DNA of 64,000 nucleotides, taken from the NCBI RefSeq assembly GCF_030705305.1, contig NZ_JAUZEE010000009.1, positions 62,001-126,000 of the forward strand, in the 5' to 3' direction. Made by a program: the position numbers and the translations under genes. Shown here piece after piece: positions 56,481 through 64,000 of the stretch. This DNA comes from Leptothrix discophora. GTDB taxonomy: Bacteria > Pseudomonadota > Gammaproteobacteria > Burkholderiales > Burkholderiaceae_C. The first letter of the stretch is position 1. Each line of letters opens with the position of its first letter. The notes beneath the pieces are model-generated. The model worked only from the letters and a program-made list of their open reading frames with translations, was not told the origin of the DNA and did no database searches.

Positions 56481-56807
56481 GTCCTGGTTCAACGCAGCCC
56501 CCGTGTCGGGAGCTGTCGCGTGGACGGCGTGCAAGTGACCATGTGACCGCGCTCCATCTGGAAAAGTCGTCGTGTTCGGGTCGCATCCGGCCTGCCCGTG
56601 GTGCGGGCTTGCCGAAGCGCTCAGTTCGTACTGTCGGGGCGCAAGGCCCCATGCAATGGCTGGATATCGGCTGCCGGAATGGCCTACTTCTGCGGTTTTC
56701 GTGGCGGCTTGTCACAGAACAATCCGGTCAACCGGGGTTTCCTGGGCGCTCGGTCTTCTCGCCCCGATCGCGCCTGGACCGCCCCACCGACCTTTCGAGG
56801 AACACGG
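56481..56807. promoter_or_regulatory. Divergent intergenic region between chemotaxis transcripts
   Basis: No gene is visible in these 327 bases. They separate the minus-strand chemotaxis run from a plus-strand MCP gene. Small inverted repeats lie at 56636-56650 (5-bp stem) and 56607-56621 (5-bp stem). A sigma-28-like -10 sequence on the minus strand is listed separately. No good sigma-70 promoter is seen on either strand. Confidence 0.5.
56664..56690 (-). promoter_or_regulatory. Candidate sigma-28 (FliA) promoter for the chemotaxis run
   Basis: On the minus strand GCCGATAT (56671-56664) matches seven of eight bases of the flagellar sigma -10 consensus GCCGATAA. Fifteen bases upstream lies GAAG (56690-56687), only a partial match to TAAA. 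Transcription would start about 175 bases before the MCP-like gene. This fits known FliA control of chemotaxis genes but rests on one half-site. Confidence 0.4.
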
Positions 56808-58076
56808 ATGACGATGAACCTGTTGGCACCCGCATCGCCCGCCATGGCCGGCAGCCCGGCCAGCGAGGACGGCACCGACGAAGGCACGACGCGTCCGACC
56901 GCCCGGCCCGGCGGCGCCGGTGACACGACGCTGCGCAACTTCTTCCGCTACCACGGCGTGTTCGCGCCGGGCGTGCGACTGATGCGGGCCATGTCGGTGC
57001 GCGGCAAGGCCACGCTGCTGGCGACCGCCTTCGTCGTGCCGCTGGTGCTGGCGCTGCGGCCGGTGCTGCAGGGCCGCGTGCTCGAACCCGACGACGTCGC
57101 GGCGCTGCTGATCGGCGTGGGCCTGTGCCTGGGCCTGGCGATCTACATGCTGCTGTCGTTCTACCGCGTCACGCACGGTGGCCTGGCCCACTTGAAGGAC
57201 CAGGTCGGGCGCATGGCCAGCGGTGACCTGAGCATGCGACCGCAGCCCTGGGGCCGCGACGAGGTGGCCCATGCGATGCACTCGCTGGGTCAGTCGCTGG
57301 GCCGGCTGGCCGACCTGTTCGCGGTGGTGCGCCAGGGTGTCGCGGCGTCCTCGCATGCCTCACGCGAGATCGCCGCCGGCAACCATGACCTGGCCCGCCG
57401 GACGGCACAGGCGTCGGCCGCGATCGACCAGGTGCTGGCCGGCGTGGGCCAGTACATCGAGCAGCTCGACGCCAGCGGCCTGCGCGTCGACGAGGCCGAG
57501 GCGGTGGTGCAGCGCATGCGCCTGGACGCCGCGCATGCGCGCCACCAGATGTCGCAGCTCGACGCGCGCATGCAGACGCTGCAGGGCCGCAGCCGCGAGA
57601 TCGTCGAGATCGTCGCGCTGATCGACAACCTGGCCTTCCGCACCAACATCCTGGCGCTCAACGCCTCGATCGAGGCGGCCAAGGCCGGCGAGGCCGGTCG
57701 CGGTTTCGCCGTCGTGGCCCAGGAGGTCCGCAGCCTGGCCGGGCGCAGCGCCGAATCGGCCCGCCGCATCGGCGAGATCATTTCCGGCTCGACCGACGAC
57801 ATCGCCCAGGGCCACGTGCTCGCCGGCGAGGCCGCCCAGGCGCTGCGCCAGACCGATGCCCAGGTCGCCCGCATCCACGACGAGATGCAGCAGATCGTCG
57901 GCCTGACCCGCGCCGGCCAGAACAGCTCGCAGGAGATCCTGGCCGAGCTGCGCCGGCTGGGCGCGCTGACCCAGGAAAACCACGCCCTGGTCGACCAGAT
58001 GGCCGAGGCCTCCAACGCGCTGAGCGCCGAGGGCGAGCGACTCGACCTGACCGTCGCGGGCTTCAAGCTGATCTGA
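56808..58076 (+). CDS. Methyl-accepting chemotaxis protein
   Basis: A 422-residue receptor with two membrane helices (about 65-83 and 98-120) and almost no periplasmic loop, then HAMP (about 120-175) and a signalling domain with the tip [21 protein letters not shown]. It lacks a sensor domain of its own, so it probably senses through the membrane or with partners. GAGG lies before ATG 56808. It is divergent from the chemotaxis run. Confidence 0.9.
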   Translation: MTMNLLAPASPAMAGSPASEDGTDEGTTRPTARPGGAGDTTLRNFFRYHGVFAPGVRLMRAMSVRGKATLLATAFVVPLVLALRPVLQGRVLEPDDVAALLIGVGLCLGLAIYMLLSFYRVTHGGLAHLKDQVGRMASGDLSMRPQPWGRDEVAHAMHSLGQSLGRLADLFAVVRQGVAASSHASREIAAGNHDLARRTAQASAAIDQVLAGVGQYIEQLDASGLRVDEAEAVVQRMRLDAAHARHQMSQLDARMQTLQGRSREIVEIVALIDNLAFRTNILALNASIEAAKAGEAGRGFAVVAQEVRSLAGRSAESARRIGEIISGSTDDIAQGHVLAGEAAQALRQTDAQVARIHDEMQQIVGLTRAGQNSSQEILAELRRLGALTQENHALVDQMAEASNALSAEGERLDLTVAGFKLI

Positions 58077-58151: not shown

Positions 58152-60227
58152 GTGTCCCAGCCCTCCCTGCCCACCCGCACCCGCCGACTGATGCACCGGC
58201 TGCGCCTGCGTGCCAGCCTCTGGAGCGGTTCGCTGCGACTGCGGCTGGCGCTGTCCTGCGGGGCGCTGATCGCGGTCAGCGTGATTGTGGTGACCGCGGC
58301 GGTGCTGGCGCGCGGCTCGGCCCACACCCGGCAGGCGGTGCTCGACAACGAGGCGGCCAGCGTCGACCACCTGGCGGTGCTGCTGCGCGACCGGGTGGTG
58401 CGCCTGCAGCTGGCGCTGCGGGCGGCGGCCCAGCCGGTCGATGAGCGCGTGATGCTGGACCGCGAGGCCCAGCAGCGCTACATGAGCCAGCGCCAGGTGC
58501 TGGCCACGCTGTTCTCGACCATCGCGCTGGTCGACCTGGACGGCCGCGTGCTGGTGCTGCGCGACGGCTCGACCATCAGCCACCCGGACATCCGGGTCGG
58601 CGACCGGCCCTATTTCCACACCACGCTGCAGCAGGCTCGCCCGGTCGTGTCCGACCCGATGATCGGCCGCGTCTCGCGCGAGGCGGTGGTCGCGCTGACC
58701 ATGCCGGTGCTGGGCGGCGACGGCCTGGTCCGGGCGGTCCTGCTGGGCACCCTGCGGCTGAACTCGCGCGACCTGCTCTACGGCCTGGGCGGTGCCGACG
58801 GCAGCAACCAGGAGGTCATGCAGACCGTCATCACCGATGCCAGCGGGCTGGTGCTCGCGCATCCCGATCCGGCCTACATCCTGCGACCGATCGACGAGGT
58901 GCCCGGCCTGCGCGTGGCCGCCGCGCGCTGGATCCGTGCCGGCCGGCCGATCGAGCCGCTGCCCGAGGCCTACAGCGACGCCGGCTACGTGGTGGCGGCC
59001 GCCGGCGTGCCGGGGCCGGACTGGATGGTCTTCCGCATCGCCAACACCGATGCGCTGCTCGGCGGCGTGCGCTCCGTCGTGCGCGAGGCCTTGTTCTACG
59101 GCGCCGGCGTGGCGCTGCTGGCGATGGCGCTGCTGTGGGTCTGGGTCACGCGCCTGCTGCGCCCGCTGGACCAGCTGGAGGAGCGCGCCCGGGCGCTCGG
59201 GCCGGGCGGGCCGCCGCTGGAGGATGGCTGGCCGGACGCCGCCGGCGAGGTCGGCGAGTTGGAACGGGCGCTGCGCGTCGCGCTGCACCAGCGCGCCCGC
59301 GCCGAGGCCTGCAACGCCGAGCTGCTCGTCAAGCTGCGCTCGGTCATGAGCACCGCGCCGATCGGGCTGGCCTTCACCCGCGCGCGCGCCTTCGAGCTGG
59401 TCAGCGACGAGTTCTGCCGCCTGTTCGGCCACCCGCCGGGCGGGCTGATCGGCGAGTCGGCCCGGCTGATCTATGCCTCCGACGAGGACTACGCCGGACT
59501 GGGCGCCAAGGTGGCCCAGTCCTTTGCGGAAGGTCGTCCCTACAGCGGCGACCACCACTTCGTGCGCCGCGACGGCAGCCGCTTCGTGGGCGAACTGACC
59601 GGTCGGCCGGTCGATCCGCACGACTCCGGCGCCGGCACGATCTGGCTGCTGCGCGACGTCACGCAGGAGCGTGCCGAGCAGCGCGAGCTGGCCTGGAGTG
59701 CCAGCCACGATGCGCTCACCGGCCTGCTCAACCGAGCGCACTTCGAGCGCACGCTGTCCTTGCTGGTCGAGCGCAACCGCCAGCTTGAACGGGCCGGCGA
59801 GCCCTGGCCGACGGCCGCCGTGCTGTTCATCGACCTGGACCTGTTCAAGCAGGTCAACGACAGCGCTGGCCATGCGGCGGGCGACGACATGCTGCGCTCG
59901 GTCGCCCGCGCCCTGACGGGCAGCCTGCGCCGAGACGAGTGTGTGGCCCGGCTCGGCGGCGACGAGTTCGCGGTGCTGCTCGAAGGTTGCGACCCGATCG
60001 CCGCCGAGCGCCTCGCGCACAAGCTGCTGCGCGCGGTCGAGCAGATCCGCCTGCCCTGGGGCGAGCGCCAGCTGCAGGTCGGCGCCAGCATCGGCCTGGT
60101 GGTCCTCGAACCGCCGCTGCGCGAACCCGATGCCCTGATGCACGCGGCCGATCTGGCCTGCTACGCCGCCAAGCAATCGGGCCGACACGCGGTCCGGATC
60201 GCCGAGCGGGCCGAGCCCCCGGTCTGA
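58152..60227 (+). CDS. Membrane diguanylate cyclase with Cache, HAMP, PAS and GGDEF domains
   Basis: A 691-residue enzyme that makes cyclic di-GMP from GTP. TM1 (about 32-53), a Cache-like periplasmic sensor (60-305, with VGDRPYFHTTLQQARPVVSD), TM2 (312-332), HAMP-like linker, PAS (about 400-510) and the GGDEF domain (525-685). The active site RLGGDEFAVL is intact near residue 600. The product-inhibition site reads RRDE where RxxD is usual, so feedback may be weak. GTG 58152 is the likely start; ATG at residue 14 is possible. Confidence 0.92.
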   Translation: MSQPSLPTRTRRLMHRLRLRASLWSGSLRLRLALSCGALIAVSVIVVTAAVLARGSAHTRQAVLDNEAASVDHLAVLLRDRVVRLQLALRAAAQPVDERVMLDREAQQRYMSQRQVLATLFSTIALVDLDGRVLVLRDGSTISHPDIRVGDRPYFHTTLQQARPVVSDPMIGRVSREAVVALTMPVLGGDGLVRAVLLGTLRLNSRDLLYGLGGADGSNQEVMQTVITDASGLVLAHPDPAYILRPIDEVPGLRVAAARWIRAGRPIEPLPEAYSDAGYVVAAAGVPGPDWMVFRIANTDALLGGVRSVVREALFYGAGVALLAMALLWVWVTRLLRPLDQLEERARALGPGGPPLEDGWPDAAGEVGELERALRVALHQRARAEACNAELLVKLRSVMSTAPIGLAFTRARAFELVSDEFCRLFGHPPGGLIGESARLIYASDEDYAGLGAKVAQSFAEGRPYSGDHHFVRRDGSRFVGELTGRPVDPHDSGAGTIWLLRDVTQERAEQRELAWSASHDALTGLLNRAHFERTLSLLVERNRQLERAGEPWPTAAVLFIDLDLFKQVNDSAGHAAGDDMLRSVARALTGSLRRDECVARLGGDEFAVLLEGCDPIAAERLAHKLLRAVEQIRLPWGERQLQVGASIGLVVLEPPLREPDALMHAADLACYAAKQSGRHAVRIAERAEPPV

Positions 60228-60267
60228 GCGTGTAACAAGCGCAACGCGCACATCCCCTGAATGGGTG

Positions 60268-60281
60268 GACCCAATTGGGTC
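60268..60281. promoter_or_regulatory. 14-bp perfect palindrome
   Basis: GACCCAATTGGGTC is a perfect palindrome, 40 bases after the diguanylate cyclase stop. Its symmetry and AT core fit a binding site for a dimeric regulator. GGGT and ACCC half-sites recur just outside it (60263-60266 and 60287-60290). It could also be the end signal of the upstream gene. Confidence 0.45.
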
Positions 60282-60384
60282 AATGAACCCGACCGGACCT
60301 GCGGCGCACGGGGCATTCCTGCACGGATCATCCTGCTGCAATGCAGCATCTCGACCGACGGGACCGGCTCTTGAGGGTGACGTT

Positions 60385-60400
60385 CGTGAGGTAAATCACG
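60385..60400. promoter_or_regulatory. CRP/FNR-family binding site candidate
   Basis: CGTGA and TCACG are arranged as a perfect inverted repeat with six bases between (CGTGAGGTAAATCACG). This is the layout of CRP-type sites (TGTGA-N6-TCACA), differing in the outer base. It lies about 170 bases before the cytochrome b-type start, suitable for an activator if transcription starts near 60440-60460. Confidence 0.5.
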
Positions 60401-60571
60401 GACCTGTCGATACCGGAAGGTGTGTCGCGCCTTACGTTTGCTCACGGCGGACTTCAGCGAAGTTTCATGCGTCGACCCTAGGATCCTGGGAAATCGTTCC
60501 ATTGAATCGCTTTGAGTTGGGTTGAAGTACCCACCTCGACGCATCAGAACCTACCCAACCGGATCACGACC

Positions 60572-61537
60572 GTGAGCTCAGTCCTGTCTGCCCAGAACCC
60601 GGCGCGCCTGCATGCGCAGCCGGCACCCGCGCCGGTGCGGCCCGTGGACATGCCAGCCGGCGAGTCCGGCGCGGCGTCGCATCCGTCCGCCCGGCGCGGC
60701 CAGCGCAACGCGTCGGTCCTGCTGACGCTGGGGGCCCTCCTGGGGGCCACCTGGGCGATCAGCCAGCGCGGCTGGTTCCAGGCCGGCGACGACATCGGCT
60801 ACTGGCTGGGCGTGGTCGGCGGCTCGATGATGCTGCTGCTGCTGCTCTACCCGCTGCGCAAGCACGTCCGCGCGATGCGCGGCTGGGGCTCGCCCAAGGT
60901 CTGGCTGGCCGGCCACATGGTGCTGGGCATCGGCGGTCCGCTGCTGATCCTGCTGCACTGCGGTTTCCAGGTCGGTTCGCTGAACGCGGCGGCGGCCCTC
61001 TACAGCATGTGCATCGTCGCCGCGAGCGGCGTCATCGGCCGGTTCCTGTACGTGCGCGTCAACCGTGGCCTGGTCGCAGAACGCAACGCCCTGGGCGACT
61101 TGCGGCGACAGATGGGCTTCGATGGCGAGCGCCGCTCGATGCTGTGGTTCGCGCCGCAGGTGCAGCAGGACCTGGATGCCTTCGAGGCCGACGTGGTCGC
61201 CCGCAGCAAGTCGCCGTCCGGTGCCGGCCGGCACTGGCTGCGCCTGCTGCTGGTGCTGCCGCTGCGCAGCTGGTCGGTGCGGCTGAAGGCGCAGCGCGAG
61301 ATCCGCGTCGCGCTGCGGGTGCTGGCGCGCGAGCAGAACTGGCAGGGCAGCCTGCTGCGCCAGCGCCAGCGCCAGGCGCGACGCTCGCTGGTGTCCTACT
61401 TCGTCGCGGTGATGCGGGTGGCCCTGTTCGCCGCCTGGGAGCGCCTCTTCGCGCTCTGGCACGTCGCCCATATCCCCTTCGTGTTCCTGCTGGTGATCGC
61501 GGGCGTCGTGCACGTGGTCGCGGTCCACGCCTACTGA
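60572..61537 (+). CDS. Predicted bis-haem b membrane protein (cytochrome b/ferric-reductase-like)
   Basis: A 321-residue membrane protein with about five helices. Two helices each carry a His pair 14 apart: His115/His129 (GHMVLGIGGPLLILLH) and His300/His314 (HIPFVFLLVIAGVVH), with extra His297 and His319. The His-x13-His pattern in two helices is how ferric reductase and NADPH-oxidase proteins hold two haems across the membrane. A soluble basic stretch (about 175-285) lies between. The likely role is moving electrons to the multihaem cytochrome that follows in a one-base overlap. The GTG at 60572 is my choice; no ATG fits. Confidence 0.75.
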   Translation: MSSVLSAQNPARLHAQPAPAPVRPVDMPAGESGAASHPSARRGQRNASVLLTLGALLGATWAISQRGWFQAGDDIGYWLGVVGGSMMLLLLLYPLRKHVRAMRGWGSPKVWLAGHMVLGIGGPLLILLHCGFQVGSLNAAAALYSMCIVAASGVIGRFLYVRVNRGLVAERNALGDLRRQMGFDGERRSMLWFAPQVQQDLDAFEADVVARSKSPSGAGRHWLRLLLVLPLRSWSVRLKAQREIRVALRVLAREQNWQGSLLRQRQRQARRSLVSYFVAVMRVALFAAWERLFALWHVAHIPFVFLLVIAGVVHVVAVHAY

Positions 61538-63531
61538 TGCGTGATGCGCACGCCCCCGGCCATCCGCTGCGGTCCCGCCTGACGGGCCCTCGGAGCCTTG
61601 GCCTGCCGACCGGGTGGGTGCGCCTCGTCGCGCGTGCGGTGAGCCACCTCGGCGCCCTCGTGCTGCTGGCGACGCTGTGGCTGCTGTCTGCTGCCGCGCA
61701 GGCCCAGGGCATCGAGTCGGTGCTGTCGCCGGGCAAGGTGGTGCAGTCGCATGCCAAGGTCGAGGCCGACTGCAAGAGCTGCCACGTCAAGTTCGACCGC
61801 GCCGCGCAGGACCGCCTGTGCAGCGACTGTCACAAGGACATCGCCGCCGACGTTCGCGACAAGTCCGGCTTCCATGGCCGCAAGCTGGCGACCCAGCCGA
61901 GCGCCTGCCGCGACTGCCACACCGACCACAAGGGCCGCAACGCCCGCATCGTCGAGCTGGACGTCAAGGCCTTCGACCACACCGGCCTGGCCGACTGGTC
62001 GCTGCGCGGCGCGCACATCAAGACCGAGTGCAAGAGCTGCCACCTGCCCGGCAAGAAGTGGCGCGAGGCGCCGCAGGACTGCCTGTCGTGCCACAAGAAG
62101 GACGACACCCACAAGGGCACGCTGGGCCCGAAGTGCGCCGACTGCCACACCGAGACCGACTGGAAGAAGACCACCTTCGACCACGACAAGACCCGCTTCG
62201 CGCTGAAGGACAAGCATGCCGACGCCAAGTGCGGCGACTGCCACCGCGACAGCAACTACCGCGAGACGCCGCGCACCTGCATCGGCTGCCACCGCAAGGA
62301 CGACGAACAGCTGATCAAGGGCCGGCGCGGCCACCAGGGCCAGTACGGCGAGAAGTGCGAGACCTGCCACACCGCCAAGGCCTGGAAGCCCAGCACCTTC
62401 AACCACGACGTCGACACGAAGTACCTGCTCAAGGGCAAGCACAAGCCGCTCGAGTGCAAGGCCTGCCACACCGGGCATCTGTACAAGCAGCCGGTCAAGA
62501 GCGACTGCCTGAGCTGCCACCTCAAGGACGACAAGCACAAGGGCACGCTGGGCAAGGACTGCGCGTCCTGCCACAACGAGCGCGGCTGGAAGGACCAGGG
62601 CAAGTTCGACCACGACAAGACGAAGTTCCCGCTGCTGGGCAAGCACGTCGAGGCCGAGTGCAAGGCCTGCCACAAGTCGCAGGTCTTCAACGAGGCGCCC
62701 AAGGACTGCATCGGCTGTCACGAGAAGGACGACAAGCACGACAAGACCCTGGGCCGCGACTGCGGTGCCTGCCACGGCGAACGCGACTGGAAGACCACCA
62801 AGGGCAAGTTCGACCACGACAAGACCCAGTTCCCGCTGCGCAACGGCCATGCCGTGCCCAAGCTCGAATGCAAGGCGTGCCACAAGAGCCTGAAGGACAT
62901 GCGCAAGACGCCGCTGGACTGCCTGAGCTGTCACAAGAAGGACGACAAGCACGAGGGCCAGCTCGGTGCGCGCTGCGAGAGCTGCCACACCGACAAGACC
63001 TGGAAGACCACCATCGGCTTCGACCATGCGAAGACCCGCTTCCCGCTGACCGGTCGCCACATCACGACGGTCTGCAAGGACTGCCACACCACCGGCGCCC
63101 GCTTCAAGGACGCGCCGATGGACTGCTGGAGCTGTCACAAGAAGGCCGACAAGCACAAGCAGACGCTGGGCACGGCCTGCGAGAGCTGCCACAACACGCG
63201 GTCCTGGGGCCTGTGGAACTTCGACCATGACCGCCAGACCAGCTACAGGCTCGAAGGTCCGCATGCCAAGGTCGCCTGCATCACCTGCCATGCCCGTCCG
63301 GCACCGGCCGGGAAGAAGGTCGCGCCGACCGGCAACACCTGCATCGCCTGCCACCGCAAGGACGACGTTCACGACGGCGCCTTCGGCAACCGCTGCGAGC
63401 AGTGCCACGTGGTCGACAAGTGGAAACGCATCATCAACCGGGGCATGAGCCCGCCGCCCGTGCTGCCCGCCACACCATCCGTCACACCGCCCGCCAAACC
63501 GCCCGCCGGGACGAACCGGAGTCCGTCATGA
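61537..63531 (+). CDS. Periplasmic 24-haem cytochrome c
   Basis: A 664-residue exported protein with a signal peptide (hydrophobic core about 33-50, cleavage near 57). I count 24 CXXCH motifs, arranged as eight repeats of about 65-70 residues with three motifs each. The repeat follows the plan FDHDKTxFxLxGxH, then CxxCH, CxxCH-KKDDxHKGxLG and CxxCH-x-WK. A proline-rich tail (PPPVLPATPSVTPPAKPPAG) ends the protein. Such chains act as electron wires in metal-oxidising or -reducing and extracellular electron transfer systems. It overlaps the genes on both sides (one base with the b-type protein, 4 bp with the next cytochrome). Confidence 0.9.
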   Translation: MRDAHAPGHPLRSRLTGPRSLGLPTGWVRLVARAVSHLGALVLLATLWLLSAAAQAQGIESVLSPGKVVQSHAKVEADCKSCHVKFDRAAQDRLCSDCHKDIAADVRDKSGFHGRKLATQPSACRDCHTDHKGRNARIVELDVKAFDHTGLADWSLRGAHIKTECKSCHLPGKKWREAPQDCLSCHKKDDTHKGTLGPKCADCHTETDWKKTTFDHDKTRFALKDKHADAKCGDCHRDSNYRETPRTCIGCHRKDDEQLIKGRRGHQGQYGEKCETCHTAKAWKPSTFNHDVDTKYLLKGKHKPLECKACHTGHLYKQPVKSDCLSCHLKDDKHKGTLGKDCASCHNERGWKDQGKFDHDKTKFPLLGKHVEAECKACHKSQVFNEAPKDCIGCHEKDDKHDKTLGRDCGACHGERDWKTTKGKFDHDKTQFPLRNGHAVPKLECKACHKSLKDMRKTPLDCLSCHKKDDKHEGQLGARCESCHTDKTWKTTIGFDHAKTRFPLTGRHITTVCKDCHTTGARFKDAPMDCWSCHKKADKHKQTLGTACESCHNTRSWGLWNFDHDRQTSYRLEGPHAKVACITCHARPAPAGKKVAPTGNTCIACHRKDDVHDGAFGNRCEQCHVVDKWKRIINRGMSPPPVLPATPSVTPPAKPPAGTNRSPS

Positions 63532-64000
63532 AGCTGTCCACCGCATCCCCCCTCCTGACCTGGCTGAGGACGCGCCTGGCGATGCTGGCCCTGCTGCTGG
63601 TCGGCCTCGCGGGCCTGTTGCCCGCCGCGCAGGCGCAGGCGGTGGGCCGTGACTTCGACCACAGCCGCACCGGCTTCGTGCTCAACGGCGCCCATGCCCG
63701 CGAGCGCTGCGAGTCCTGCCACGTCAACGGCGTCTTCAAGGGCACGCCGCGCGACTGCCAGACCTGCCACACCAGTGGCAATCGCCTGGCCCGCACCAAC
63801 ACCGTCAAGTCGACCAACCACATCCCGACCACGGCGCCCTGCGAGACCTGCCACACGACCCAGTCCTTCAACGGCGCGCGCTTCAGCCATGCCGGCGTGG
63901 TGCGCGGCACCTGCGCGACCTGCCACAACATGCGCAATGCGCCGGGCAAGCCGGCCAACCACATCGCCACCACCGCCAGCTGCGACACCTGCCACCGCAC
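63528..64000 (+). CDS. Multihaem cytochrome c (partial, 3' end beyond window)
   Basis: The first 157 residues of an exported multihaem protein. The signal peptide runs MKLSTASPLLTWLRTRLAML to cleavage after AQA near residue 37. The mature part begins VGRDFDHSRTGFVLNGAH, the same signature as the 24-haem protein, and has five CXXCH motifs so far (CESCH, CQTCH, CETCH, CATCH, CDTCH). The ATG overlaps the stop of the previous gene. The total haem number is unknown because the gene leaves the window. Confidence 0.88.
   Translation, partial: MKLSTASPLLTWLRTRLAMLALLLVGLAGLLPAAQAQAVGRDFDHSRTGFVLNGAHARERCESCHVNGVFKGTPRDCQTCHTSGNRLARTNTVKSTNHIPTTAPCETCHTTQSFNGARFSHAGVVRGTCATCHNMRNAPGKPANHIATTASCDTCHR

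Follow-up and report, generated by a model that had tools for sequence, protein, structure and literature searches.

A PCC3-type porin-cytochrome cluster of Leptothrix discophora and a ferredoxin/FAD oxidoreductase that accompanies its inner-membrane protein across genomes

The porin-cytochrome cluster PCC3 was named by He et al. 2017 (PMC5566968) as a four-gene set, described there as an inner-membrane protein (IMP) of ~300 amino acids (aa) with five transmembrane (TM) helices, an SGXXG motif on TM4 and two W-x3-H-x13-H motifs on TM3 and TM5, a periplasmic multihaem cytochrome (MHC; median 21 haems), an extracellular MHC rich in T, S, A and G (median 34 haems) and a porin, with 22-39 aa per haem. 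For PCC3 the same paper proposed a b protein that resembles ferric reductases and bears two H-x13-H motifs (PMC5566968). PCC3 has been reported in many Gallionellaceae (PMC10734462), in the mobilis-type Leptothrix group (PMC13386937) and in Leptothrix cholodnii and ochracea, and its function is called untested in PMC12442390. The locus studied here lies at the right-hand end of a 64,000-nucleotide stretch of the 4.65 Mb Leptothrix discophora genome (hereafter the window; contig NZ_JAUZEE010000009.1, G000:C31:62001-126000) and was followed into the contig DNA to the right of the window edge (L003, G000:C31:125000-144999). It is a PCC3-type porin-cytochrome cluster, an already described type, and the new element, found by following the locus past the window, is a ferredoxin/FAD oxidoreductase that accompanies PCC3 near-obligately. 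The features of the locus are as follows (plain coordinates are window positions).

60650..61537, forward strand: PCC3 IMP, inner-membrane protein of ~295 aa (helical model, motifs, homologues in 80 named loci, the best 80 of 379)
60902..60958, forward strand: W85-x3-H89-x13-H103 on TM3, predicted ligands of two b haems (W in 54/55 homologues, both H in 55/55)
61457..61513, forward strand: W270-x3-H274-x13-H288 on TM5, predicted partner ligands (W270 and H274 in 55/55, H288 in 54/55 with one gap)
61537..63531, forward strand, ATG to stop: cytochrome with 24 CXXCH, 664 aa, predicted periplasmic MHC of PCC3 (motif count)
63528..64000 in the window, forward strand, ATG at 63528, full gene to contig position 127636: second cytochrome, predicted extracellular MHC of PCC3 (motifs)
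L003:2717-5182: porin-like gene, 822-aa frame, starting ~80 bases after the end of the second cytochrome gene
About L003:5900 to 12707: ccmB, ccmC, ccmF, ccmH and a ccmI/CycH-type gene, after the porin-like gene
L003:12721-14034: ferredoxin/FAD oxidoreductase, 452-aa frame, after the ccm genes

The PCC3 features of motifs, haem number, composition, gene order and IMP length all recur at this locus, and it differs from PCC3 as set out in the published text in that ccm genes and the oxidoreductase follow. The original prediction, made from the window, had proposed an unusual conduit with no porin in view. That absence holds within the window; a porin-less novel conduit was nevertheless ruled out by the porin-like gene just past its edge, and since the locus is PCC3 with such a gene downstream, a type already described, Leptothrix included, the claim to novelty fails. 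The downstream genes complete a known porin-cytochrome cluster, PCC3, and not an Mtr, Pio or Mto pathway. What stands is the proposal that a membrane protein of bis-haem b-like type and the multihaem wire next to it make up a candidate conduit to the cell exterior, a mechanism that is largely the published PCC3 hypothesis.

Co-occurrence of the oxidoreductase with the IMP was counted in two samples of the order (n=150 and n=399) and one of the phylum (n=398), which overlap one another. In the larger order sample the genomes carrying the IMP and those carrying the oxidoreductase were the identical 21, spanning 14 of 159 genera. In the smaller, with thresholds of E<=1e-37 for strong IMP matches and E<=1e-60 for the oxidoreductase, the 7 strong-IMP genomes (this genome counted) were the 7 oxidoreductase genomes, and 9 more with weak IMP matches had IMPs of another type and no oxidoreductase at E<=1e-60. 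All six IMP genomes of the phylum sample carried the oxidoreductase (6/6). For the same 21 of 399 genomes to coincide at random the probability is 10^-35, or 10^-20 by genus, and both values are too small because of shared descent and joint transfer. The two genes are also linked: they are divergent neighbours, with <1 kb between matches, in 18/21 order genomes, and in the remainder the oxidoreductase lies 14 kb downstream (this genome), 8 kb away (G264) or on a separate contig near an apparent assembly break (G323). In both G323 and G439, where the genes are on separate contigs, the second cytochrome runs off the contig end, so these are probably assembly breaks, and independence of the oxidoreductase from linkage was not argued from them.

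The named loci scanned were the best 80 of 379 IMP relatives. The oxidoreductase was visible in 45/80 of them, within whatever DNA was fetched, and in 22 of the 35 that had at least 5 kb upstream and at least 8 kb downstream (the long-flank set). Where it was not in the fetched DNA (35 named loci), 19 genomes were searched and 18 have it, 17 complete and one in two pieces; the gene may sit just past the fetched DNA, as in Sphaerotilus mobilis, where it lies ~4 kb beyond the locus end. Distances between IMPs and distances between oxidoreductases were correlated over 42 loci (r 0.87, reached by 0 of 2000 permutations), and the oxidoreductase is the more conserved of the two, at 48-97% identity vs 26-97% (stop-to-stop frames). 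Literature searches, and text searches of PMC5566968 and PMC10734462, supplements aside, did not turn up the oxidoreductase as a component of PCC3. An unexplained '4Fe-4S ferredoxin' protein cluster, reported in 41/87 iron oxidisers (PMC10734462), might be the same protein.

The oxidoreductase has a FAD-NAD(P) domain of TrxR/YpdA type, together with two 4Fe-4S motifs and a hydrophobic stretch at its N-terminus (judged by eye). In an alignment of 18 members, C57, C63, C67, C87, C93 and C97 were invariant (18/18); the second ligand position was Ser in 13/18 and Cys in 5/18 for the first cluster and His in 18/18 for the second. Among solved structures, it is best matched by those of thioredoxin reductase and YpdA and by ferredoxin-NADP reductases of TrxR type. 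A thioredoxin-reductase-like function was rejected, as none of the 18 has a CxxC apart from its Fe-S motifs, with no redox disulphide. The score against YpdA was 170.3 bits, with a curated cut-off of 339.9, and at what we take to be the YpdA active-site Cys position the oxidoreductases have Ala (16/18) or Ser (2/18). Arg or Lys is invariant at positions 354, 360, 362 and 366 in the 18 members, and by analogy with thioredoxin reductase these residues could bind the 2'-phosphate of NADPH. On the simplest reading, a ferredoxin-NADP reductase and its own ferredoxin are fused here into one membrane-anchored protein.

The position of the gene after a ccm operon, here and in some relatives, and the presence of ccm genes near the cluster in 12/35 long-flank loci would also suit a protein dedicated to assembly, which would provide the electrons for haem or cytochrome c maturation of the haem-rich PCC3 proteins instead of acting as a transfer partner. 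This is improbable, given that the oxidoreductase lies divergently next to the IMP in 18/21 genomes, lacks a disulphide-exchange CxxC and carries two Fe-S motifs with an NAD(P)-binding domain. A TPR (CcmI-like) frame stands immediately before the IMP in several gammaproteobacterial loci (L080, L086 and L094).

The IMP gene has an uncertain start (TTG 60512, GTG 60572 or ATG 60650), and homology favours ~60650. Two H-x13-H pairs claimed for it in the original prediction were found at residues 135/149 and 320/334 counted from TTG 60512, with histidine codons at 60914, 60956, 61469 and 61511. Their conservation, and that of H271 (55/55) and H293 (50/55, with 4 Tyr and one gap; numbering from 60650), was read from an alignment of 55 sequences, the window protein and 54 of the 80 named loci. 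An SGVIG motif lies on TM4. The AlphaFold2 model is all-helical (pLDDT 88.8, pTM 0.74) and compatible with five TM helices; because hydropathy adds a weaker peak at 246-269, before TM5, the helix count is unsettled. Loop 131-262 is positively charged and so would be cytoplasmic by the positive-inside rule. From these sequence motifs the IMP is predicted to be bis-haem b-like, in line with the haem ligation hypothesised in the literature. It could not be placed by Pfam in the ferric-reductase or cytochrome b561 families, an assignment the earlier ferric-reductase-like description had raised and which was rejected: PF01794 matched none of the 55 IMPs at E<=0.1, and PF01292 did not match the window IMP and matched 1/55 homologues (E 0.0027). 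The IMP profile gave a single chance-like match among PDB sequences (E 0.47).

The second gene, with the 24 CXXCH in eight triplets that had been predicted, has exactly 24, at spacings within the triplets of 16,29 / 17,18 / 16,26 / 17,18 / 16,18 / 17,18 / 17,18 / 21,18 and of 32-41 between them; 1000 residue shuffles averaged 0.25 CXXCH and never exceeded 3. The protein is Lys/Asp-rich, with 27.7 aa per haem, and its Sphaerotilus mobilis orthologue also has 24 CXXCH. The second cytochrome, for which at least five motifs had been noted, has 5 CXXCH inside the window and, in full, 24 CXXCH plus one CX4CH over 702 aa (29 aa per CXXCH; T 15.1, A 11.0, S 10.0 and G 8.7%). The three genes overlap end to start, as described, by 1 base (IMP/first cytochrome, 61537) and 4 bases (first/second cytochrome, 63528-63531). 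Giant second cytochromes occur elsewhere, with 72 haem motifs at L049:12671-20818 (open at the locus end), 62 each at L106:8625-13697 and L108:8927-13978 and 60 at L071:8944-13452; the highest published number encountered is 85.

The 822-aa porin-like frame has a signal-peptide-like start (judged by eye), ends in ...GGRYDF and matches SPOR and TPR, both below Pfam cut-offs. Relatives of the gene occur in 33/35 long-flank loci, with a C-terminal Phe in 23/33, and a simple amphipathicity count for the proteins was not above shuffles. TIGR03509 (MtrB/PioB-family porin) gave no match in the genome, and the control for this profile gave none either. This conservation of the porin-like gene and the Thr/Ala/Ser-rich composition of the second cytochrome bear on whether electrons leave the cell at all. 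The cluster could instead serve redox balancing, detoxification or electron storage in the envelope, electrons staying in the cell, a view that is compatible with the predicted status of the second cytochrome's localisation and with a PCC3 literature that, in the portions consulted, shows no extracellular activity; conserved porin-like gene and cytochrome composition both speak against it, and we hold it very improbable.

We put at about an even chance that this locus is a PCC3 conduit in which an oxidoreductase on the cytoplasmic face exchanges NAD(P)H electrons with the inner b haem of the IMP, net flow being most likely outward. Electrons would pass from NAD(P)H to FAD and on to Fe-S within the anchored ferredoxin-FAD oxidoreductase, then from Fe-S to the cytoplasmic-side b haem and across the inner membrane to the periplasmic-side b haem of the IMP. 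The latter would reduce the 24-haem cytochrome, spanning the periplasm as a wire, which would hand electrons through the porin and the second cytochrome to an extracellular acceptor; the overall logic would be that of a ferric reductase/NADPH oxidase split over several proteins. Observed here are the gene content, the motifs and the fact that the oxidoreductase co-occurs with the IMP and is linked to it; we infer its contact with the b haem, NAD(P)H as its substrate and the direction of flow, and the haem ligation, localisation and conduit function are those hypothesised in the literature. Because the oxidoreductase co-occurs with the IMP across genomes, PCC3 would be coupled to NAD(P)H, not to quinone alone, and would probably export electrons. 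The potential of NAD(P)H is near -320 mV. Outward flow is favoured by this potential together with the inside-negative membrane potential, and for the same two reasons this route would have to run uphill to bring electrons from Fe(II) to NAD(P)+.

In the published view, PCC3 is an uptake conduit for Fe(II) or mineral oxidation in which the IMP delivers electrons to the quinone pool, and the oxidoreductase would then be accessory. He et al. 2017 put this view forward (PMC5566968), and PCC3 is found in iron-oxidising Gallionellaceae and Leptothrix. Expression reports point both ways. In Sideroxydans lithotrophicus ES-1, both PCC3 clusters are reported as down-regulated with Fe(II) (PMC8788666), lower transcripts that fit outward flow and tell against uptake. 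On magnetite, PCC3 proteins are reported without a Mto-like rise and with one extracellular cytochrome undetected (PMC12016527). One PCC3 copy of Sideroxydans sp. CL21 is reported to show a raised IMP when cells are able to oxidise iron (PMC12442390), which favours uptake. The uptake view leaves the near-obligate oxidoreductase unexplained; we consider it less likely than not.

Outward flow through an NAD(P)H-coupled IMP has to be set against the CL21 result and several further points. The published PCC3 models have the IMP exchange electrons with quinone (PMC5566968). Genes may co-occur and be linked without contact between their products, and kinship and joint gene transfer inflate the statistics. 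PCC3 is present and the oxidoreductase was not found in the metagenome-assembled genome (MAG) G775; in G774 and G777 the oxidoreductase lies beside a different IMP copy (L119 and L121) than the one first found; and in the phylum sample G405 matches the oxidoreductase in part, its N-terminal Fe-S portion absent, and gives no PCC3 IMP match. Two comparisons of the IMP also came out null: Foldseek of the IMP model against the PDB gave nothing better than E 0.2, and the PCC3 IMP profile against ferric reductases was not significant (E 0.06). Among the six fetched clusters with an other-type IMP, five (L109-L113) gave no match for either oxidoreductase query within 14-19 kb. The G405 relative (L118, G405:C41:69230-70171) is a 780-aa protein, and no IMP or multihaem gene turned up in 16 kb of fetched DNA there.

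Other-type IMPs beside multihaem genes, from the order and from contig C27 of this genome (10 sequences), aligned with PCC3 IMPs at hhalign E 2e-20. They gave a weak match to ferric reductases over TM3 (E 2.8e-4; one comparison, 20 frame-checked rows), with H-x13-H at the aligned TM3 site in 7/20 ferric-reductase rows. In this genome's sister cluster on C27 (L005:13819-16417), a short IMP is flanked upstream by an NAD-binding/2Fe-2S reductase (NAD_binding_1 and Fer2 domains) and downstream by an 8-CXXCH cytochrome. In another, G109 (L114), a Pyr_redox, cNMP and Fer4 protein precedes the IMP and MHCs of 10, 4 and 5 motifs follow, a PCC4-like set. Pairing with an oxidoreductase was thus observed for the PCC3 type and 2/7 other clusters examined, not all. 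HbpS-like proteins were identified by Pfam in L109, L112 and L113 (one or two neighbours tested per cluster). More tentatively, and somewhat short of an even chance, PCC3 may be a trans-envelope NAD(P)H:extracellular-acceptor oxidoreductase and not an iron oxidase feeding quinone. The ferredoxin-FAD protein, with its unusual Fe-S motifs, would then push electrons to the outside by way of the bis-haem b protein and the two giant haem wires, and at least two sister clusters would repeat the plan (pyridine-nucleotide Fe-S oxidoreductase, bis-haem IMP and multihaem cytochrome), each using another oxidoreductase. Genome surveys count PCC3, which is widespread, as a putative iron oxidase, and the near-obligate NAD(P)H-type oxidoreductase is a candidate for its missing cytoplasmic partner. 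If so, the presence of PCC3 should not count as a marker of iron oxidation, and bacteria with PCC3 could discharge reductant onto minerals, humics or electrodes.

The IMP gene was found in 3/13 genomes of the genus (this genome counted), and its closest named relative, among the best 80 of 379, is that of Sphaerotilus mobilis DSM 10617 (87% identity), which places the host in the Sphaerotilus-Leptothrix group. Directly upstream of the cluster lie a dCache-PAS-GGDEF protein (58152-60227) and a chemotaxis receptor (56598-58076), an order repeated in Sphaerotilus mobilis (L022) and not seen among the other named loci. A promoter/terminator scan of 60200-60700 detected no element. PCC3 genes are also carried by L072, a contig labelled as a Klebsiella pneumoniae MAG, and by L053, from a Candidatus Methanoperedens MAG, and in both cases this is probably a binning error; in L072 the IMP, porin, ccm genes and oxidoreductase were all matched and no multihaem frame was seen, perhaps because of a collapsed repeat.

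Among described systems other than PCC3, PCC4 (He et al. 2017) shares the IMP motifs and has redox proteins in its cluster (compare the Pyr_redox/Fer4 protein of L114), whereas its MHCs are of 4, 5 and 10 haems with no extracellular MHC and those here have 24 and 24+1 motifs. The conduit described for Methylobacter (PMC13322032) is an MtrA-type system. With MtrAB/MtoAB/PioAB and CymA, the locus has in common the logic of a porin and a periplasmic MHC; unlike in those systems, the cluster proteins have no above-cut-off decahaem match (the cytochromes score 25.5 and 96.1 bits against the MtrA/DmsE decahaem profile, cut-off 192.2, in a search limited to cluster proteins), and the genome yielded no NapC/CymA-type protein, an absence the original prediction had noted in the window and which extends to the entire genome (PF03264 unmatched, with the control matched in E. 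coli). YpdA/TrxR-type flavoproteins (PDB 7a7b, 3ab1) share the FAD/NAD(P) domain of the oxidoreductase, which unlike them lacks the redox CxxC and has an N-terminal hydrophobic stretch and two 4Fe-4S motifs. In ferric reductases and NADPH oxidases, a flavoprotein supplies electrons to the cytoplasmic haem. Their TM domain carries two H-x13-H on TM3 and TM5, as the IMP does; unlike theirs, the flavoprotein here is separate, TrxR-type and equipped with Fe-S motifs, and the IMP is without PF01794.

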